Assembly (NCBI GenBank): GCA_031262465.1
Contig: JAISHQ010000060.1
Span: 1-33,420, forward strand
Direction of reading: 5' to 3'
DNA length: 33,420 nucleotides
From: Rikenellaceae bacterium
GTDB lineage: Bacteria > Bacteroidota > Bacteroidia > Bacteroidales > Rikenellaceae
Part shown: positions 154 to 9,563 of the stretch, in pieces
Position numbering within the stretch: the first letter of the stretch is position 1
How the letters are laid out: each line of letters starts with the position of its first letter
The notes under the pieces: model-generated
Databases searched by the model: none
Told to the model about the DNA's origin: nothing
What the model saw: only the letters and a program-made list of their open reading frames with translations
Translations under genes and position numbers: made by a program

Positions 154-1368
154 CTAAAATTTGTCGCCGATTCTGGCCGCCAGATTCTCCATGTCTCGTC
201 CAATCTTGTCGCGGGTGATCTTGGCGTAAATCTGGGTCGTCTTGATGCTCGTGTGGCCGAGCATCTTGGAGACAGTTTCGAGCGGAACACCCTGAGACAG
301 AGTAACTGTGGTGGCAAATGAGTGTCTTGCGAGGTGATACGACAGCCGCATCTCAAACTCGCACTGTCGCGCAATCTCTTTCAGCACCCGATTACAGTAC
401 GCCAAATCGGGCACATTGAAAACGCGGTTGTCACGCGTCGGGAACCCTGCGTACTTCTTTATGATCTGCAACGGCACGTCCAATAGCCGGATAGCCGCAG
501 GCGTATTGGTCTTCTGTCGTCGGATGTCAATCCACAGCGAGCCGTCGGCCTCCTTGATGAGATTATCGTGCGTCAGGTGCTTCAGATCAACGTGGGCCAG
601 ACCACAAAAACAGCTGAAAACAAACATATCCCGTACAAAGTCCTGTCCCGAAAACTCTAACTTCTGCGTCATCAGCCGTTTCAACTGCTCCTCATTCAAG
701 AACCCGCGCTCCCGAACCTCCATCTTCAGCCGGTAGTCAGCGAACGGATTACGGCTGATCCATCCTCGGTTGTGGGCAATCGTAACCATCCGTTTGAGCG
801 GGCGCAGGTACATATTCGACGACGAAGAGGTCAGACCACAGTCGGTCATCAGATAGAGCGCGAAATTCTCGATAAACTCCGGCTCCAACTCCTTGAGCGG
901 GATGTCGTAGTTGCGATACCTGAGCCGGATGAAATCAGACAGCTTCGCGTGGACGCTCCGATACTTGCGAAACGTACTCTGTACCCGATCCACTCCGACG
1001 TGCCTCTTGAAATTGTCGTTATGCTCAGCAAAGAGTGAGAGCAGGGTTTTGTACTCTTCGCCCATGCCCAAATAAGCATCTCGCACCTTGATTGCTGTTA
1101 CATAAGCATCCTTGTCGACTATGCGTTGATAATGGCTCGTGATTTGAACCCTGATGTTGTCGATGGTCTTGTTGATCTTCTGTGCTTCGAGGCTCTTACC
1201 CGCCGCACGATTGCTCTTCAAATCCCACAGCGAGGGGGCTACATCGAGCTTACAACTGAACTGTGCGATGCTTCCGTTCACGGTGATTCGCCCCATAACA
1301 GGCACTTTGCCATTGGGTTTCGGAGCGTTCTTTTTGAGGTAGAACAGAACCTTAAATGTACTTCTCAT
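154..1368 (-). CDS. Tyrosine recombinase / integrase of a Bacteroidales integrative element
   Basis: This 404-residue site-specific integrase is the usual length for the Bacteroides phage/conjugative-transposon family. It would cut and rejoin DNA at attachment sites to move the element. An N-terminal arm/SAM-like domain is followed by a catalytic domain with the box-II HLAR at about 345-348, a GH at about 371-372 and nucleophile Tyr about 381 (IYAKI). At the position of the first catalytic Arg the sequence reads FCGLAHVDL, so that Arg is replaced by Ala, as in the IntDOT group, which also lacks this Arg. I chose the ATG at 1368. A longer in-frame TTG at 1419 coincides with a likely -33 promoter element, and homologues normally start MRSTFKVLF. 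It is followed by the HTH fragment in the same orientation. Confidence 0.93.
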   Translation of the reverse strand: MRSTFKVLFYLKKNAPKPNGKVPVMGRITVNGSIAQFSCKLDVAPSLWDLKSNRAAGKSLEAQKINKTIDNIRVQITSHYQRIVDKDAYVTAIKVRDAYLGMGEEYKTLLSLFAEHNDNFKRHVGVDRVQSTFRKYRSVHAKLSDFIRLRYRNYDIPLKELEPEFIENFALYLMTDCGLTSSSSNMYLRPLKRMVTIAHNRGWISRNPFADYRLKMEVRERGFLNEEQLKRLMTQKLEFSGQDFVRDMFVFSCFCGLAHVDLKHLTHDNLIKEADGSLWIDIRRQKTNTPAAIRLLDVPLQIIKKYAGFPTRDNRVFNVPDLAYCNRVLKEIARQCEFEMRLSYHLARHSFATTVTLSQGVPLETVSKMLGHTSIKTTQIYAKITRDKIGRDMENLAARIGDKF

Positions 1369-1388
1369 TACTCTAAGATTTTGGGTTA

Positions 1389-1419
1389 TAAAACTACTTT
1401 TCTTAGAGTCAGCCGTCAA
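1389..1419 (-). promoter_or_regulatory. Likely integrase promoter
   Basis: On the minus strand, TTG (1419-1417) is separated by 20 nt from TAGTTTTA (1396-1389), close to the Bacteroidetes TTG-N19/20-TAnnTTTG arrangement. It sits about 20 nt upstream of the chosen ATG. The last base of the -7 box departs from consensus. Confidence 0.5.
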
Positions 1420-2675: not shown

Positions 2676-3344
2676 ATGCTTATCCTTTCGACCGCCTACC
2701 TGGGGAACATTCAATATTACACCAAACTGCTTCAGGGCAGGGAGGCGGTGGTCATCGAGCGGCATGAAAATTTTGTCAAACAAAGCGGGCGAAACCGCTG
2801 CCTGATCTTGGGGGCCGACGGGGTGATCCCGTTGATTGTCCCCGTGCACAAAACCTCGGGGCAGAAAACGCCGATTCTCCAGGTGCGGATCGACCATTCA
2901 AAACGGTGGCAACACCAACATTGGCATTCGATCCACTCGGCCTATAAAAATTCGCCCTATTTCGATCACTATGCCGACACATTCGAGCGTTTTTATAGCC
3001 AGCGATTTGACTATTTGTGGGAGCTAAACGAGGCGTTGCAACAGGCTATTTTTGGTGCATTAGGGGTTCAGCCCGCGATTAACTATTCCGACGATTACCT
3101 GCGGGAAGTGGTACCGGAAAAGGATTTCAGGAACGCTTTTTCCGACAAACCCCGCCTACAACGACCCGACCCGGCCTTTCGCCCGGAGCCTTATTATCAG
3201 GTGTTTTCCGAAAAAATGGAATTTGTTCCCAACCTGAGCATCCTCGATCTGCTGATGTGTCAAGGGCCTGCCACTTTGGAAATTATTAGACGGTCAACGG
3301 TGTCCGACGAGCCGCGAAAGGCTTCAAATGGTACAATCGGCTAA
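2676..3344 (+). CDS. WbqC-like family protein
   Basis: A 222-residue protein of the WbqC family, found in polysaccharide/O-antigen loci and widespread as a single gene in Bacteroidetes; its biochemical activity is not established. Family landmarks are the N-terminal LSTAYLGNIQYYTKL, the central HWHSIHSAYKNSPYF and the C-terminal PNLSILDLLMCQGP. Length is normal for the family, but the last ~18 residues are a non-conserved tail. The stop codon TAA (3342-3344) is also the flanking triplet of a MITE-like insertion, so the original 3' end may have been altered. It starts about 15 nt after the predicted transcription start. Confidence 0.88.
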   Translation: MLILSTAYLGNIQYYTKLLQGREAVVIERHENFVKQSGRNRCLILGADGVIPLIVPVHKTSGQKTPILQVRIDHSKRWQHQHWHSIHSAYKNSPYFDHYADTFERFYSQRFDYLWELNEALQQAIFGALGVQPAINYSDDYLREVVPEKDFRNAFSDKPRLQRPDPAFRPEPYYQVFSEKMEFVPNLSILDLLMCQGPATLEIIRRSTVSDEPRKASNGTIG

Positions 3345-3505
3345 GAGTCTGTTTAAATTTTGTATCCGAAGTCATTTGTGCCACATTTCGAGCGATTTTT
3401 TTGCGCACGAGGCGGCGAATAGTGGTTCCTATTTAACAACTCGTGGGTGAAAAAAGCGCCGAAATGTGGTGCAAAGAACGAGAGATATAAATTTTAAACA
3501 GACTC
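3345..3505. mobile_element. MITE-like element, 161 bp, long inverted repeats, TAA target duplication
   Basis: Both ends carry the identical inverted 13-mer GAGTCTGTTTAAA (3345-3357; complement at 3493-3505). The whole element folds on itself, with CCACATTTCG (3381-3390) matched by its complement at 3460-3469 at the same distance from each end. The element is flanked on both sides by TAA (3342-3344 and 3506-3508), consistent with a 3-bp target duplication. It encodes no transposase, so it would depend on a related IS elsewhere. Three-base duplications of TNA type are known for some IS5-family elements; family assignment here is only a suggestion. It lies between two convergent genes. Confidence 0.72.
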
Positions 3506-4634
3506 TAATGATCCACACCCACGGCAGGCAGAGGCAAAACAGAAAGGTTTCGACAAACGAGAGCAACAACAGGCGGAAAATAAAGCCGATGCGGAACTTG
3601 GGTTCTAACAAAATTTCCCCGACAAAAATCGTGAACGTATTGGAAATCAACGGCAAGAGGTAAACGGAGAGCAGGAAATAAAAATCTTCGTTGACAACCC
3701 CCGGCGTAAACAACACATGAAGCCCCGTCGCCCAAAAGAGCACGCCCAACATAAACTCCATGCCGGAGATTAGCCGCCCGCGAGGGGTGCTAAACCGCAG
3801 GCGCGGAGCGAGTTGACTCAAGTAGTTTTTCAGCCGGTTGGGTCGGTGTAAAACCACTTGAGGTTGCAGGACAAACTCCTCCCGCCCCCGTTTGCCGGAA
3901 GTATCTTCCAAGACGACAAATTGCCCGAAATCGTCCCGTTTGATGCACCCCACCAGATAGATACGCCGCAAGTTGCATAGCTCCATCAGGGTACGAAACA
4001 GGTTGCCCCGAACTCCTCGTCCTTTTCCACAAGCGTACCGCGCCACGCCACGAATGGGGGTCACGTGCCCGGCCGGGTCGCGCATCTTCATGATCGCCAG
4101 CCGCGCCAAGCTGTTTTGTGAAAGTTCGTTGTTCAGCGAACGGACAAAAAGCATATAATCCGCCCGGCTGACCACCGCGCCGGTGCGGCGCAGGTCGTCG
4201 TCCGCCGCAAAATCTTTGTCTATGATCGTCAGGCGGTTATAGAGGCGGGAACGGCTTCGGTATCTCCCTCGGATCGGATAACGCAGGGCGTTCCACTCTT
4301 CGGGAATCGGTCGAGGATCCAACTCGAAATAATCCAATATCCGCCCGAAAGATTTGGGGTGACCGGCGGAGCCTGCGATCAGAATCACCTCATAGCGGGT
4401 GTAATTGAGTGCCATCAAGGCTTGAATTTTGGGAATAGTGTCTTTGGTCTCACGCAAGTCGCAACGGACGACCACCGAGATTTTGGGCTGAAAAGGTTGG
4501 TGGGCGATCCGCTCGGCATCCAAGTCGACCATCACGTCGCGGTAACGAACTGTCCGGCAAAAGGATAGGATGCCGCAGGTCGTATAAAATGCGATCAGCA
4601 ACCAAAAAAGAAACAGAAGGAGTGCCGAAATCAT
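3429..4634 (-). CDS. GT2-like membrane protein lacking the DxD motif; C-terminus encoded by the MITE
   Basis: 401 residues with an N-terminal membrane segment (about 4-26), a cytoplasmic GT-A-like domain starting at KISVVVRCD (about 51), and C-terminal hydrophobic segments (about 294-312, 318-340, 350-373). The order matches processive family-2 glycosyltransferases. Where active members read GDYLLFLDAD this protein reads ADYMLFVRSLNNEL (about 158-171), so the metal-binding DxD is lost. A weak QxxR-like segment remains at about 274-280. Residues 377-401 are translated from the MITE-like element, replacing the native end. The start lies 3 nt after the stop of the HEAT-like gene, so the genes are coupled. 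It is probably a catalytically dead relative or an enzyme with altered chemistry. Confidence 0.7.
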   Translation of the reverse strand: MISALLLFLFWLLIAFYTTCGILSFCRTVRYRDVMVDLDAERIAHQPFQPKISVVVRCDLRETKDTIPKIQALMALNYTRYEVILIAGSAGHPKSFGRILDYFELDPRPIPEEWNALRYPIRGRYRSRSRLYNRLTIIDKDFAADDDLRRTGAVVSRADYMLFVRSLNNELSQNSLARLAIMKMRDPAGHVTPIRGVARYACGKGRGVRGNLFRTLMELCNLRRIYLVGCIKRDDFGQFVVLEDTSGKRGREEFVLQPQVVLHRPNRLKNYLSQLAPRLRFSTPRGRLISGMEFMLGVLFWATGLHVLFTPGVVNEDFYFLLSVYLLPLISNTFTIFVGEILLEPKFRIGFIFRLLLLSFVETFLFCLCLPWVWIIRVCLKFISLVLCTTFRRFFHPRVVK

Positions 4635-4637
4635 AGG

Positions 4638-5300
4638 TTACATTCCGTTCAGTTTGAGTGCCCTGCGACCAAAACGAACCACCGAAGGGTTGGGCGAATG
4701 GGTCAGGGCTTCGACCCCTGTCACGGGGATGTTGCGCCGTTGAGCCAGCGCATAGATATTGGCGCAATCCCGGTCGCTCAACTCGTGGGGGTAACCGGCC
4801 AGCCGCTCAATTAGCTGGGCGGGTTCCTGATTGAGCCACACCAACAGCGTGACCATCCGCAATTCGTTGTTGGGGCTATCCAAAAAATGGTGCAATTCGT
4901 TCATCATGGCCTCGGGGATGGGTGTTTCGATAAAGACCGAGAGCGATTCGACCTTGCGGTAATCGTCGTGGTATCGACAATCTTGGAGAATTTGGCGATC
5001 CAGCCCGTTGTCGTGGATAATCAGGCGGAGGATGCGCCCTTCGACCCCCTCCAACATGGGCGCAAGGCGCGTTAGCAGGTGAATCAGCACCCGCCGGTTG
5101 AAGGCATATTCAATCTCCGGAAAGACCATCGAGGGGAGATGATCCTGCGGCTGGAGGCATTCAAACAATTTTTGGGTATAGCTCGCCCGCACCCCCCGGC
5201 TCAGCAACCTCCAGCCATAGAGGCCGATCGAGCCGAGCAGAATAAGCCCGTAAAAGAAGCACAAGCAGTAGAGCAAGGTATCGAATACGGTCTGGGCCAT
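4638..5300 (-). CDS. Membrane-anchored HEAT-like protein of unknown function
   Basis: 220 residues with one N-terminal transmembrane helix (about 7-28) followed by a soluble, leucine-rich alpha-helical domain. Helical pairs with a regular spacing (for example around 120-145 and 195-215, ending SPNPSVVRFGRRALKL) suggest HEAT-type repeats. No catalytic motif was recognised. It sits between the degenerate receiver gene (11 nt upstream) and the GT2-like gene (3 nt downstream), a tight operon. I infer a scaffold that tethers the receiver to the membrane GT2-like protein. The HEAT call rests on pattern only. Confidence 0.55.
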   Translation of the reverse strand: MAQTVFDTLLYCLCFFYGLILLGSIGLYGWRLLSRGVRASYTQKLFECLQPQDHLPSMVFPEIEYAFNRRVLIHLLTRLAPMLEGVEGRILRLIIHDNGLDRQILQDCRYHDDYRKVESLSVFIETPIPEAMMNELHHFLDSPNNELRMVTLLVWLNQEPAQLIERLAGYPHELSDRDCANIYALAQRRNIPVTGVEALTHSPNPSVVRFGRRALKLNGM

Positions 5301-5311
5301 TGGCTTGATTT

Positions 5312-5650
5312 TTATAGCGATCGTACTTTCCGAATAAAACGAGCTGGGTCGACGGGCAGGGTCATGTACATACTGATCCCCATGCGATAGGCCTCCATAA
5401 CCGCCTTTTCGTCGTAAATGGAGGAGAGCACGATGACTTTTCCCCGTTGGGTCAGCTCCCGCAAGGGGCAGGTGTCGGAGACACAGAGGCGGGTCGAGAT
5501 AAAAACGATCAGGTCGAAATCCTCTGCCGCCGCCTTGTCGATCATGTCGCTGTCATTTTCGGCATGAACCACGGTATTCCCGTCCATCACCAAGCGATGC
5601 GACAGAAATTGCCCAAAAACCGGATTCGCGTTATTAATCAATATTTTCAT
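5312..5650 (-). CDS. Degenerate response-regulator receiver domain (pseudo-receiver)
   Basis: A stand-alone CheY-like domain of 112 residues starting at the ATG at 5650; the longer open frame upstream has no plausible start context. The beta-alpha pattern of a receiver is clear (MKILINN..., DFDLIVFIST, GKVIVLSS, MYMTLPVDP). The acidic pair normally after beta-1 is Asn6-Asn7, the phosphoacceptor Asp is Ile51, and the conserved Lys before the cis-Pro is Leu98. Only the Ser/Thr position (about 76) is kept. It therefore cannot be phosphorylated in the usual way and probably acts by binding. It is the first gene of the trio with the HEAT-like and GT2-like proteins. Confidence 0.72.
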   Translation of the reverse strand: MKILINNANPVFGQFLSHRLVMDGNTVVHAENDSDMIDKAAAEDFDLIVFISTRLCVSDTCPLRELTQRGKVIVLSSIYDEKAVMEAYRMGISMYMTLPVDPARFIRKVRSL

Positions 5651-5995: not shown

Positions 5996-6643
5996 TTACA
6001 GCCGGGCGATCACCGTCTGGGTGCCGGTGACTTTTTGTCCGTTTTTGACCAAAATTTCGGCATCTAACGGCAGGAAGAGGTCGACCCGTGAGCCGAATTT
6101 GATGAATCCGCATTGGGTGTTTTGCCCGAACTGCTCGCCCGCTTTGGCATAGGGGACGATGCGGCGCGCCACAAAACCGGCGATCTGCCGAAACAAGATT
6201 TTTTCACGCCCGGTATCCACGACCACCGTGGTATGTTCATTCAGTTCAGAGGCTTTCGGGAGTGAGGCGATGAAATATTTGCCGGGATGATGCTTGAAAT
6301 AGGCGACCGTTCCGCCCACCGGAAACCAATTGATGTGGACGTTCCAAATCGACATGAAAATCGAGACCTGCATTCGCCGCTCGCCGAGGTATTCGGCCAC
6401 TTCGGCCTCCTGGATAATAACGATCGTTCCGTCGGCCGGGGCATAAACCGCCCGATCGTCCTGCAAAAGCGACCGCTTCGGCTCGCGGAAAAAGCGCACG
6501 ATGAACAAAGTGCCCACCACAGCCAACCCCACCACGCTCCACATCGCCCACCCGGAGAGAAAGACAACGGCCAACAAGGCCACCACGCCCCAAAACAGGG
6601 CGGTCACGGTAATGATTCGAAAGCCTTCTCGGTGAATTTTCAT
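5996..6643 (-). CDS. psd: Phosphatidylserine decarboxylase proenzyme (short, membrane type)
   Basis: Converts phosphatidylserine to phosphatidylethanolamine using a pyruvoyl cofactor made by self-cleavage. The 215 residues match the short PSD-A class. Two hydrophobic segments occur at about 13-33 and 35-51, then the catalytic domain with VSIFMSIWNVHINWFPVGG (about 90-110). The cleavage site is Gly184-Ser185 in KFGSRVD, Ser becoming the pyruvoyl group. It is the last gene of the rsfS-ftsH-cdsA-psd operon, 27 nt after cdsA, so CDP-diacylglycerol synthesis and PE formation are coexpressed. The intervening enzyme, phosphatidylserine synthase (PssA), is not in this window. Confidence 0.93.
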   Translation of the reverse strand: MKIHREGFRIITVTALFWGVVALLAVVFLSGWAMWSVVGLAVVGTLFIVRFFREPKRSLLQDDRAVYAPADGTIVIIQEAEVAEYLGERRMQVSIFMSIWNVHINWFPVGGTVAYFKHHPGKYFIASLPKASELNEHTTVVVDTGREKILFRQIAGFVARRIVPYAKAGEQFGQNTQCGFIKFGSRVDLFLPLDAEILVKNGQKVTGTQTVIARL

Positions 6644-6670
6644 CGTTATAGTGTGTGTCGATCGCGGGGA

Positions 6671-7522
6671 TCAACGCATCAATTGGGTCAATAAATAAAC
6701 AAACGGCAGGGAGAGGTACATGGCATCGAACCGATCCAACAGACCGCCGTGGCCGGGAATCAGGTTTCCCGAATCCTTTACACCGGCTTCCCGTTTAAAC
6801 ATCGACTCGACCAAATCTCCCGCAACGGCGGACAAAGTTAATACAACTCCTCCAACAATCCATCCCCACACCGGAGTATTTTCTGCCCCAGTCATCCGCG
6901 CGCCCAACCAAACGGCAGCAACGGCGGTAAAAATCAGCCCGCCAAAGAAGCCCTCCCACGATTTTTTGGGCGAAAGGCGTTTGCACAGCGGGTGTTTGCC
7001 ATGCCTGCCCAATGTCATGCCGACCAAATAGGCTCCCACGTCGTTGATCCAAATCAGGATCACATAAAATAGCACCACCCCGGCGTTATACGCTGGCGCG
7101 CCGTCCGCCCCGATCTGTACACCTAACGCGGGCAAGAGCGAGAGGGGAAGGGCGATGTAAATCAGTCCTAACGCCTGCGCACCCAAAGTCTGTACACCCC
7201 CTGCATCAAGCGTTCCGCCGTTTTGGCAGAAAATCCGGCCAATCAGCAACAAAAGGAATAGCGGAAGCAACAGAAAGAGGCCCTGCGGTGGAATGATTTG
7301 CCAAACAACCAAATAGGCGGCCACAACCGCCACCGCGCCGAGGACAATCGGCGGGTAAATCTTTTTCGAATCAGGAATAGATAGCCGGTAAAACTCATAG
7401 AGCGAGCCGACTGTCACCGCGACGACCAACGCCAACAGCGTCAGCGGGGAGCAGAGAATCGCCCCCACCATAATCGCCACCAACACCGCGCCGCTCAGGG
7501 TTCGTTTTACCAAACTCTTCAT
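6671..7522 (-). CDS. cdsA: Phosphatidate cytidylyltransferase (CDP-diacylglycerol synthase)
   Basis: Makes CDP-diacylglycerol from phosphatidic acid and CTP, the branch point for all phospholipids, in the inner membrane. The 283-residue protein is mostly hydrophobic helices. The CdsA signature is complete near the C-terminus (about 240-266): SMFKREAGVKDSG followed by IPGHGGLLDRFD, with the metal-binding acidic and basic residues intact. SPKKSWEG, another family motif, precedes it. It starts 10 nt after the ftsH stop, indicating cotranscription. Confidence 0.96.
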   Translation of the reverse strand: MKSLVKRTLSGAVLVAIMVGAILCSPLTLLALVVAVTVGSLYEFYRLSIPDSKKIYPPIVLGAVAVVAAYLVVWQIIPPQGLFLLLPLFLLLLIGRIFCQNGGTLDAGGVQTLGAQALGLIYIALPLSLLPALGVQIGADGAPAYNAGVVLFYVILIWINDVGAYLVGMTLGRHGKHPLCKRLSPKKSWEGFFGGLIFTAVAAVWLGARMTGAENTPVWGWIVGGVVLTLSAVAGDLVESMFKREAGVKDSGNLIPGHGGLLDRFDAMYLSLPFVYLLTQLMR

Positions 7523-7532
7523 CTTTAACGGA

Positions 7533-9563
<2,031 letters not shown>

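Follow-up and report, generated by a model that had tools for sequence, protein, structure and literature searches.

How does an operon come to keep both a receiver and a glycosyltransferase that have lost their catalytic residues, and does it still serve a function? The question is raised by three genes on the minus strand of a 33,420-nucleotide stretch of DNA from a Rikenellaceae bacterium (assembly GCA_031262465.1, contig JAISHQ010000060.1), here called the window. An earlier note on this DNA had placed at 3429-5650 an operon of a pseudo-receiver, a membrane HEAT-like protein, and a GT2-like protein, separated by gaps of 11 and 3 nt; coordinates and spacing were confirmed.

5312..5650, minus strand: pseudo-receiver (REC), single-domain, 112 aa (PF00072 and comparison with CheY-type PDB chains)
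5301..5311, minus strand: intergenic gap of 11 nt, from the REC stop to the start of the HEAT-like gene
4638..5300, minus strand: HEAT-like protein, a predicted membrane-anchored alpha-solenoid (HEAT/ARM-like), 220 aa
4635..4637, minus strand: intergenic gap of 3 nt, from the HEAT-like stop to the start of the GT-like gene
3429..4634, minus strand: pseudo-glycosyltransferase (GT2-like), membrane protein, 401 aa
4131..4142, minus strand: lost DxD site, window residues R165-N168
3344..3507, no strand assigned: MITE-like repeat (inverted repeats and copies elsewhere in the genome)

Three degenerate or shortened proteins

The first protein is recognizable as a receiver relative from its matches to PF00072 (E=7e-5, under the gathering score) and to CheY-type PDB chains (E~3e-4). 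Aligned to CheY, it carries N7 and A8 in place of the acid pair, I51 at the site of the phosphoacceptor Asp, and L98 at the Lys site; Ser is retained at the Thr site, as is a Pro (P99) after the Lys site. Four of the five residues of a functional receiver (acid pair, phospho-Asp, Thr/Ser, and Lys) are thus lost, exactly as the earlier note had read them, and the protein qualifies as a pseudo-receiver as defined in PMC12632262.

The HEAT-like protein has one N-terminal transmembrane (TM) helix at residues ~9-27. Its AF2 model (mean pLDDT 92) is an all-alpha, paired-helix solenoid of the HEAT/ARM kind, with ten helices past the TM segment. Foldseek returned ARM/HEAT proteins as best matches to this model, individually weak (E 0.016 and above, ~0.02), and a relative of the protein in an intact operon, described below, matches HEAT_2 significantly (6e-11). 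Compared with the TM-HEAT proteins of such intact operons, which mostly measure 270-430 aa, the window protein is C-terminally shortened. Neither the HEAT nor the GT protein of the trio matched a curated family in Pfam/NCBIfam above cut-off.

Intact GT2 synthases are recovered with a family profile of the third protein (E 1e-29 to 3e-44). The absence of its DxD motif, also claimed before, was verified: the site reads R165..N168. NDGS, GED, and QxxRW are gone too, with Gly replacing the first nucleotide-binding Asp of NDGS, and the combination of DxD, GED/TED, and QxxRW that marks processive GT2 enzymes of the PgaC/BcsA type is therefore missing. Hydropathy predicts one hydrophobic helix near the N terminus and about three toward the C terminus. 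In an AF2 model built on 54 sequences, the first ~200 residues form an N-terminal TM helix and half a GT-A domain (pLDDT 80-97 for residues 1-190), residues 205-289 fall below 50, and TM helices follow; the underlying alignment contains only relatives of 14-22% identity, and the poorly modeled half may be an artefact. The confident part retrieved GT2 enzymes in Foldseek (best E 2e-4, BcsA among the matches). On this model, the GT of the trio probably lacks half of the GT-A fold. Searching PDB sequences with a GT profile gave ceramide glucosyltransferase as a weak match (1.7e-4) confined to the N terminus; matches to a phage holin (PF11031), MlrC, and BRCT were rejected as weak noise.

Between the 3' ends of the GT-like gene and a convergent wbqC-like gene lies the MITE-like element, 164 bp long with 47-nt terminal inverted repeats (79% complementary). 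The same genome holds seven full-length copies and one part copy of 91-100% identity, those beyond the window being located on contigs C76, C24, C100 (2), C101, C16, and C73. The stop codon and last ~26 codons of the GT-like gene fall within the element. We considered and rejected it as the cause of degeneration, because no other codons are affected and MITE-free relatives are equally degenerate.

Upstream of the trio and on the same strand (5996-9563, minus strand) are what we take to be psd-, cdsA-, and ftsH-like genes of phospholipid synthesis; in genus g6, the trio adjoins a pssA-like gene (locus L035) instead. A tyrosine recombinase of the Bacteroidota type (Arm-DNA-bind_5, Phage_int_SAM_5, and Phage_integrase) is encoded near the window edge at 154-1419 (minus strand).

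The trio is widespread in the family and uniformly degenerate

Of 200 genomes from the window's family, 91 were matched by a profile of the degenerate GT (A5) and 89 by one of the HEAT protein (A6). Intact synthases account for a few of the GT matches, so we put the number of genomes with the trio at ~85. A receiver profile matched 86 of the 200, at a threshold that misses the window's own clade and takes in some ordinary receivers. About 75 more trio loci were fetched, and 82 complete loci were compared. All 82 have REC, HEAT, and GT genes on one strand and in this order, with a median junction of a 4-nt overlap. Most genera have the trio between a divergent rplU and cysQ (RplU in 69 and CysQ in 77 annotated loci); in the window's clade it sits elsewhere, with wbqC or pssA/RNase HII neighbors. 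Scanning named genomes with a receiver alignment gave 62 loci, 59 of them with all three genes; in 61 cases the title read Alistipes, Rikenellaceae, or Bacteroidales, and the remaining locus was an alphaproteobacterial stray. No histidine kinase was found beside the trio in trio loci, nor a YaiO homolog in the flanks of those examined. A presumed GH31-like gene stands between the trio and cysQ in loci L036, L037, L041, L039, L051, L058, L060, and L063, and in four of these a gene of ~100 aa, labeled DUF4286 and likewise assigned presumptively, is located there as well.

The loss of catalytic residues is nearly complete throughout. None of the 86 trio receivers retains the Lys (replaced by F in 49, L in 36, and T in 1) or the first acidic residue, and six retain the phospho-Asp; all 86 have the Pro that follows the Lys site. 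Gly98 and Pro106 (CheY numbering) are invariant. The best conserved side of the domain is alpha4-beta5-alpha5 (mean entropy, 1.3-2.0 bits), and the catalytic half is its most variable part (2.3-2.9 bits). DxD was found at or near its site in none of 85 trio GTs. No trio GT has the Trp of QxxRW at the aligned position, and only two of the 85 contain a QxxRW string anywhere. The first nucleotide-binding Asp of NDGS is retained in 72. An Arg-rich hairpin (YRSR..RRL.VVD) accounts for several of the most conserved GT positions; a strict regular expression for it matched 48 of 85 and was uninformative. GT length ranges from ~259 to 440 aa (~260-345 aa in most Alistipes). The homologs that the earlier note had proposed to collect thus conserve both the trio and its degenerate sites. 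That note had also reasoned that close homologs with an intact DxD and receiver Asp would mean local decay, perhaps after MITE insertion. The trio homologs turned out to be equally degenerate, and catalytic residues are kept only in other families or in a separate intact operon of a few family members; the MITE replaced nothing but the last GT residues.

The three genes are not equally persistent. About half of the family genomes are without the trio, which is therefore not essential. In G124 (L064), G117 (L122), and G119 (L123), REC and HEAT genes are present at the usual place and the GT gene is absent. In G001, the one congeneric genome compared (a draft of 82% completeness), the GT gene (L032:1147-2283) has two in-frame nonsense codons, TAG and TAA, and REC and HEAT are intact; either relaxed selection or a draft error accounts for these stops. 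The more durable core consists of REC and HEAT; the GT is more dispensable.

Intact relatives are found in a Bacteroidia operon

In G043, from another family of the same order, locus L045 has the arrangement REC-YaiO-HEAT-GT2 with all catalytic residues kept. The trio profiles match its receiver (3e-12), HEAT protein (2e-17), and GT (3e-44); the trio accordingly shares homologous REC, HEAT, and GT2 proteins in one operon with this locus, and lacks YaiO. Using the L045 HEAT protein as query, we found matches in 23 of 198 genomes of the class and read 20 loci. A single-domain receiver is encoded in 16 of them, complete in its catalytic residues (E, D, D, S/T, K) in every case, and all 20 GT2s have DxD and QxxRW. 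Nearly all loci include the YaiO outer-membrane protein, some also what we assume to be a CotH-like protein, and a histidine kinase is near seven. Loci L045 and L129-L148 represent a widespread Bacteroidia operon with a YaiO/TPR outer-membrane protein and often a hybrid histidine kinase. The intact GT2 of L045 matches the PgaC model TIGR03937 at 2.5e-38, under the equivalog cut-off, and intact GT2 relatives match BcsA structures by sequence. These domains point to a synthase-type exopolysaccharide module as the presumable nature of the intact operon.

Another intact version, HEAT-GT2-TPR/YaiO without a receiver, is present in nine of the 200 Rikenellaceae genomes. The trio coexists with an intact synthase of this HEAT-GT2-YaiO type in G031, G151, and G190; the window's genome and most trio genomes lack such a synthase.

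The earlier note knew of no named system with this layout. The layout does have a precedent in the Bacteroidia REC-YaiO-(CotH-like)-HEAT-GT2 operon, but a published name or description of that operon was not found in the open-access full-text literature. Searches of open-access full texts for YaiO/HEAT/GT2 operons, Alistipes exopolysaccharide, and pseudo-glycosyltransferase scaffolds yielded nothing relevant except a pseudo-receiver review.

The losses probably date to a common ancestor and the genes are under selection

In both the GT and the REC tree, trio sequences form a single clade (SH-aLRT 99 each, by a quick method), although several GT rows have long branches and unusual composition and the place of the trio clade relative to intact clades is unsettled. 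Wherever dS could be estimated, dN/dS was 0.015-0.40 for all three genes (19 pairs), the weight resting on close pairs because dS is saturated in more distant ones. Mirror-tree partial correlations were 0.66 for REC-HEAT and 0.77 for HEAT-GT; we do not take them as evidence of interaction, because cysQ correlates equally strongly.

The losses are neither recent nor special to the window genome, and the trio is most likely a once-derived, vertically inherited pseudoenzyme version of the Bacteroidia synthase-type exopolysaccharide module, without the outer-membrane protein. The earlier note had argued from two independent losses to a dedicated noncatalytic complex. Such a complex remains favored over decay, since near-total loss is conserved in the homologs and the genes are under purifying selection; the independence of the losses did not stand, as one ancestral origin fits degenerate forms that make up one clade in both trees.

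A constitutive complex as the preferred reading

We infer that the trio probably acts as a constitutive, noncatalytic inner-membrane scaffold or sensor. In the intact operon, a phosphorylated receiver may act on the membrane-anchored HEAT protein and so switch the synthase. By analogy, the receiver of the trio would provide the input and the GT2 the output, with the HEAT protein as adaptor between them. The pseudo-receiver, with its conserved alpha4-beta5-alpha5 side, might bind the HEAT protein constitutively, independent of phosphorylation, and the pseudo-glycosyltransferase with its half GT-A domain might be kept at the inner membrane by the HEAT protein. Together they could then scaffold or regulate some other envelope process, controlled by expression level or a ligand rather than by phosphorylation. 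A constitutive protein-protein module is the simplest reading, because both ends are dead yet selected and the adaptor and receiver are the last to go. One point against a pure scaffold is the first nucleotide-binding Asp kept in most trio GTs, which would be superfluous for it, even if the window GT is without this residue.

This Asp also bears on a related reading, possible but held tentatively, in which UDP or a UDP-sugar is still bound by the half GT-A domain but no sugar is transferred, and the trio would report the pool via HEAT and pseudo-receiver. The Asp outlasts the later motifs, the half of GT-A that folds is the nucleotide-binding half, and the Arg-rich hairpin is among the best conserved parts of the GT. 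A nucleotide or nucleotide-sugar sensor fits poorly with the Gly at this position in the window GT, with the nonsense codons in the congeneric gene, and with the three genomes that dispense with the GT while keeping REC and HEAT. We consider it doubtful that the trio instead regulates another, intact GT2 synthase in trans: the three genomes with both systems would suit such a role, and the target could be a different GT, but the synthase is too rare in the family and missing from the window's and most trio genomes.

Local decay, or a relic, is refuted at the family level and is very improbable even though the tail of the window GT is MITE-derived and the stops in the sister species' gene may indicate relaxed selection on the GT in this genus; the same residues are gone in ~10 genera without the MITE, and each of the three genes has a dN/dS far under 1, close pairs included. 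Hardly more credible is an active enzyme with an alternative active site, the new chemistry entertained in the earlier note. Conservation of the Arg-rich hairpin and of D139 in a GT devoid of the classical motifs could be read in its favor; the second half of GT-A is not confidently modeled, GED and QxxRW are lost besides DxD, and the length of the GT varies widely, which makes it unlikely.

Returning to the constitutive complex, we lean toward the view that a whole secretion-linked polysaccharide synthase module was turned, once and in the ancestor of those Rikenellaceae that carry the trio, into a wholly noncatalytic signaling complex at the inner membrane. Phospho-switch and glycosyltransferase would both have become pseudoenzymes, kept across a major gut genus in a new envelope-related role. 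With ~85 natural variants and intact relatives outside, the trio allows a direct test, in the common gut genus Alistipes, of how a signaling output outlives the loss of its phospho-switch and of the enzyme that it presumably controlled.

Comparison with known systems

By fold, the half GT-A of the window GT resembles GT2 structures. In contrast to the PNAG synthase PgaC/IcaA (TIGR03937) and the cellulose synthase BcsA, the trio GT is without DxD, GED, and QxxRW, half of its GT-A is unrecognizable, and the operon has no PgaA/B/D or BcsB partner. Pseudo-receivers are common, and their mode of action in bacteria is largely obscure (PMC12632262). FrzS, CmrT, and the second receiver of PleD likewise have a receiver fold without phosphorylation residues and usually no adjacent kinase (PMC12632262). 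Unlike them, the receiver of the trio stands alone, without a DNA-binding or enzymatic output domain, locked in a coupled membrane operon with a dead glycosyltransferase and a presumed HEAT membrane adaptor. The REC-YaiO-(CotH-like)-HEAT-GT2 operon differs from the trio in its catalytic receiver and GT2, its YaiO protein, its full-length GT-A, and an often nearby histidine kinase; it shares with the trio a homologous receiver, TM-HEAT protein, and GT2, similar membrane helices, and often the order REC..HEAT..GT2.
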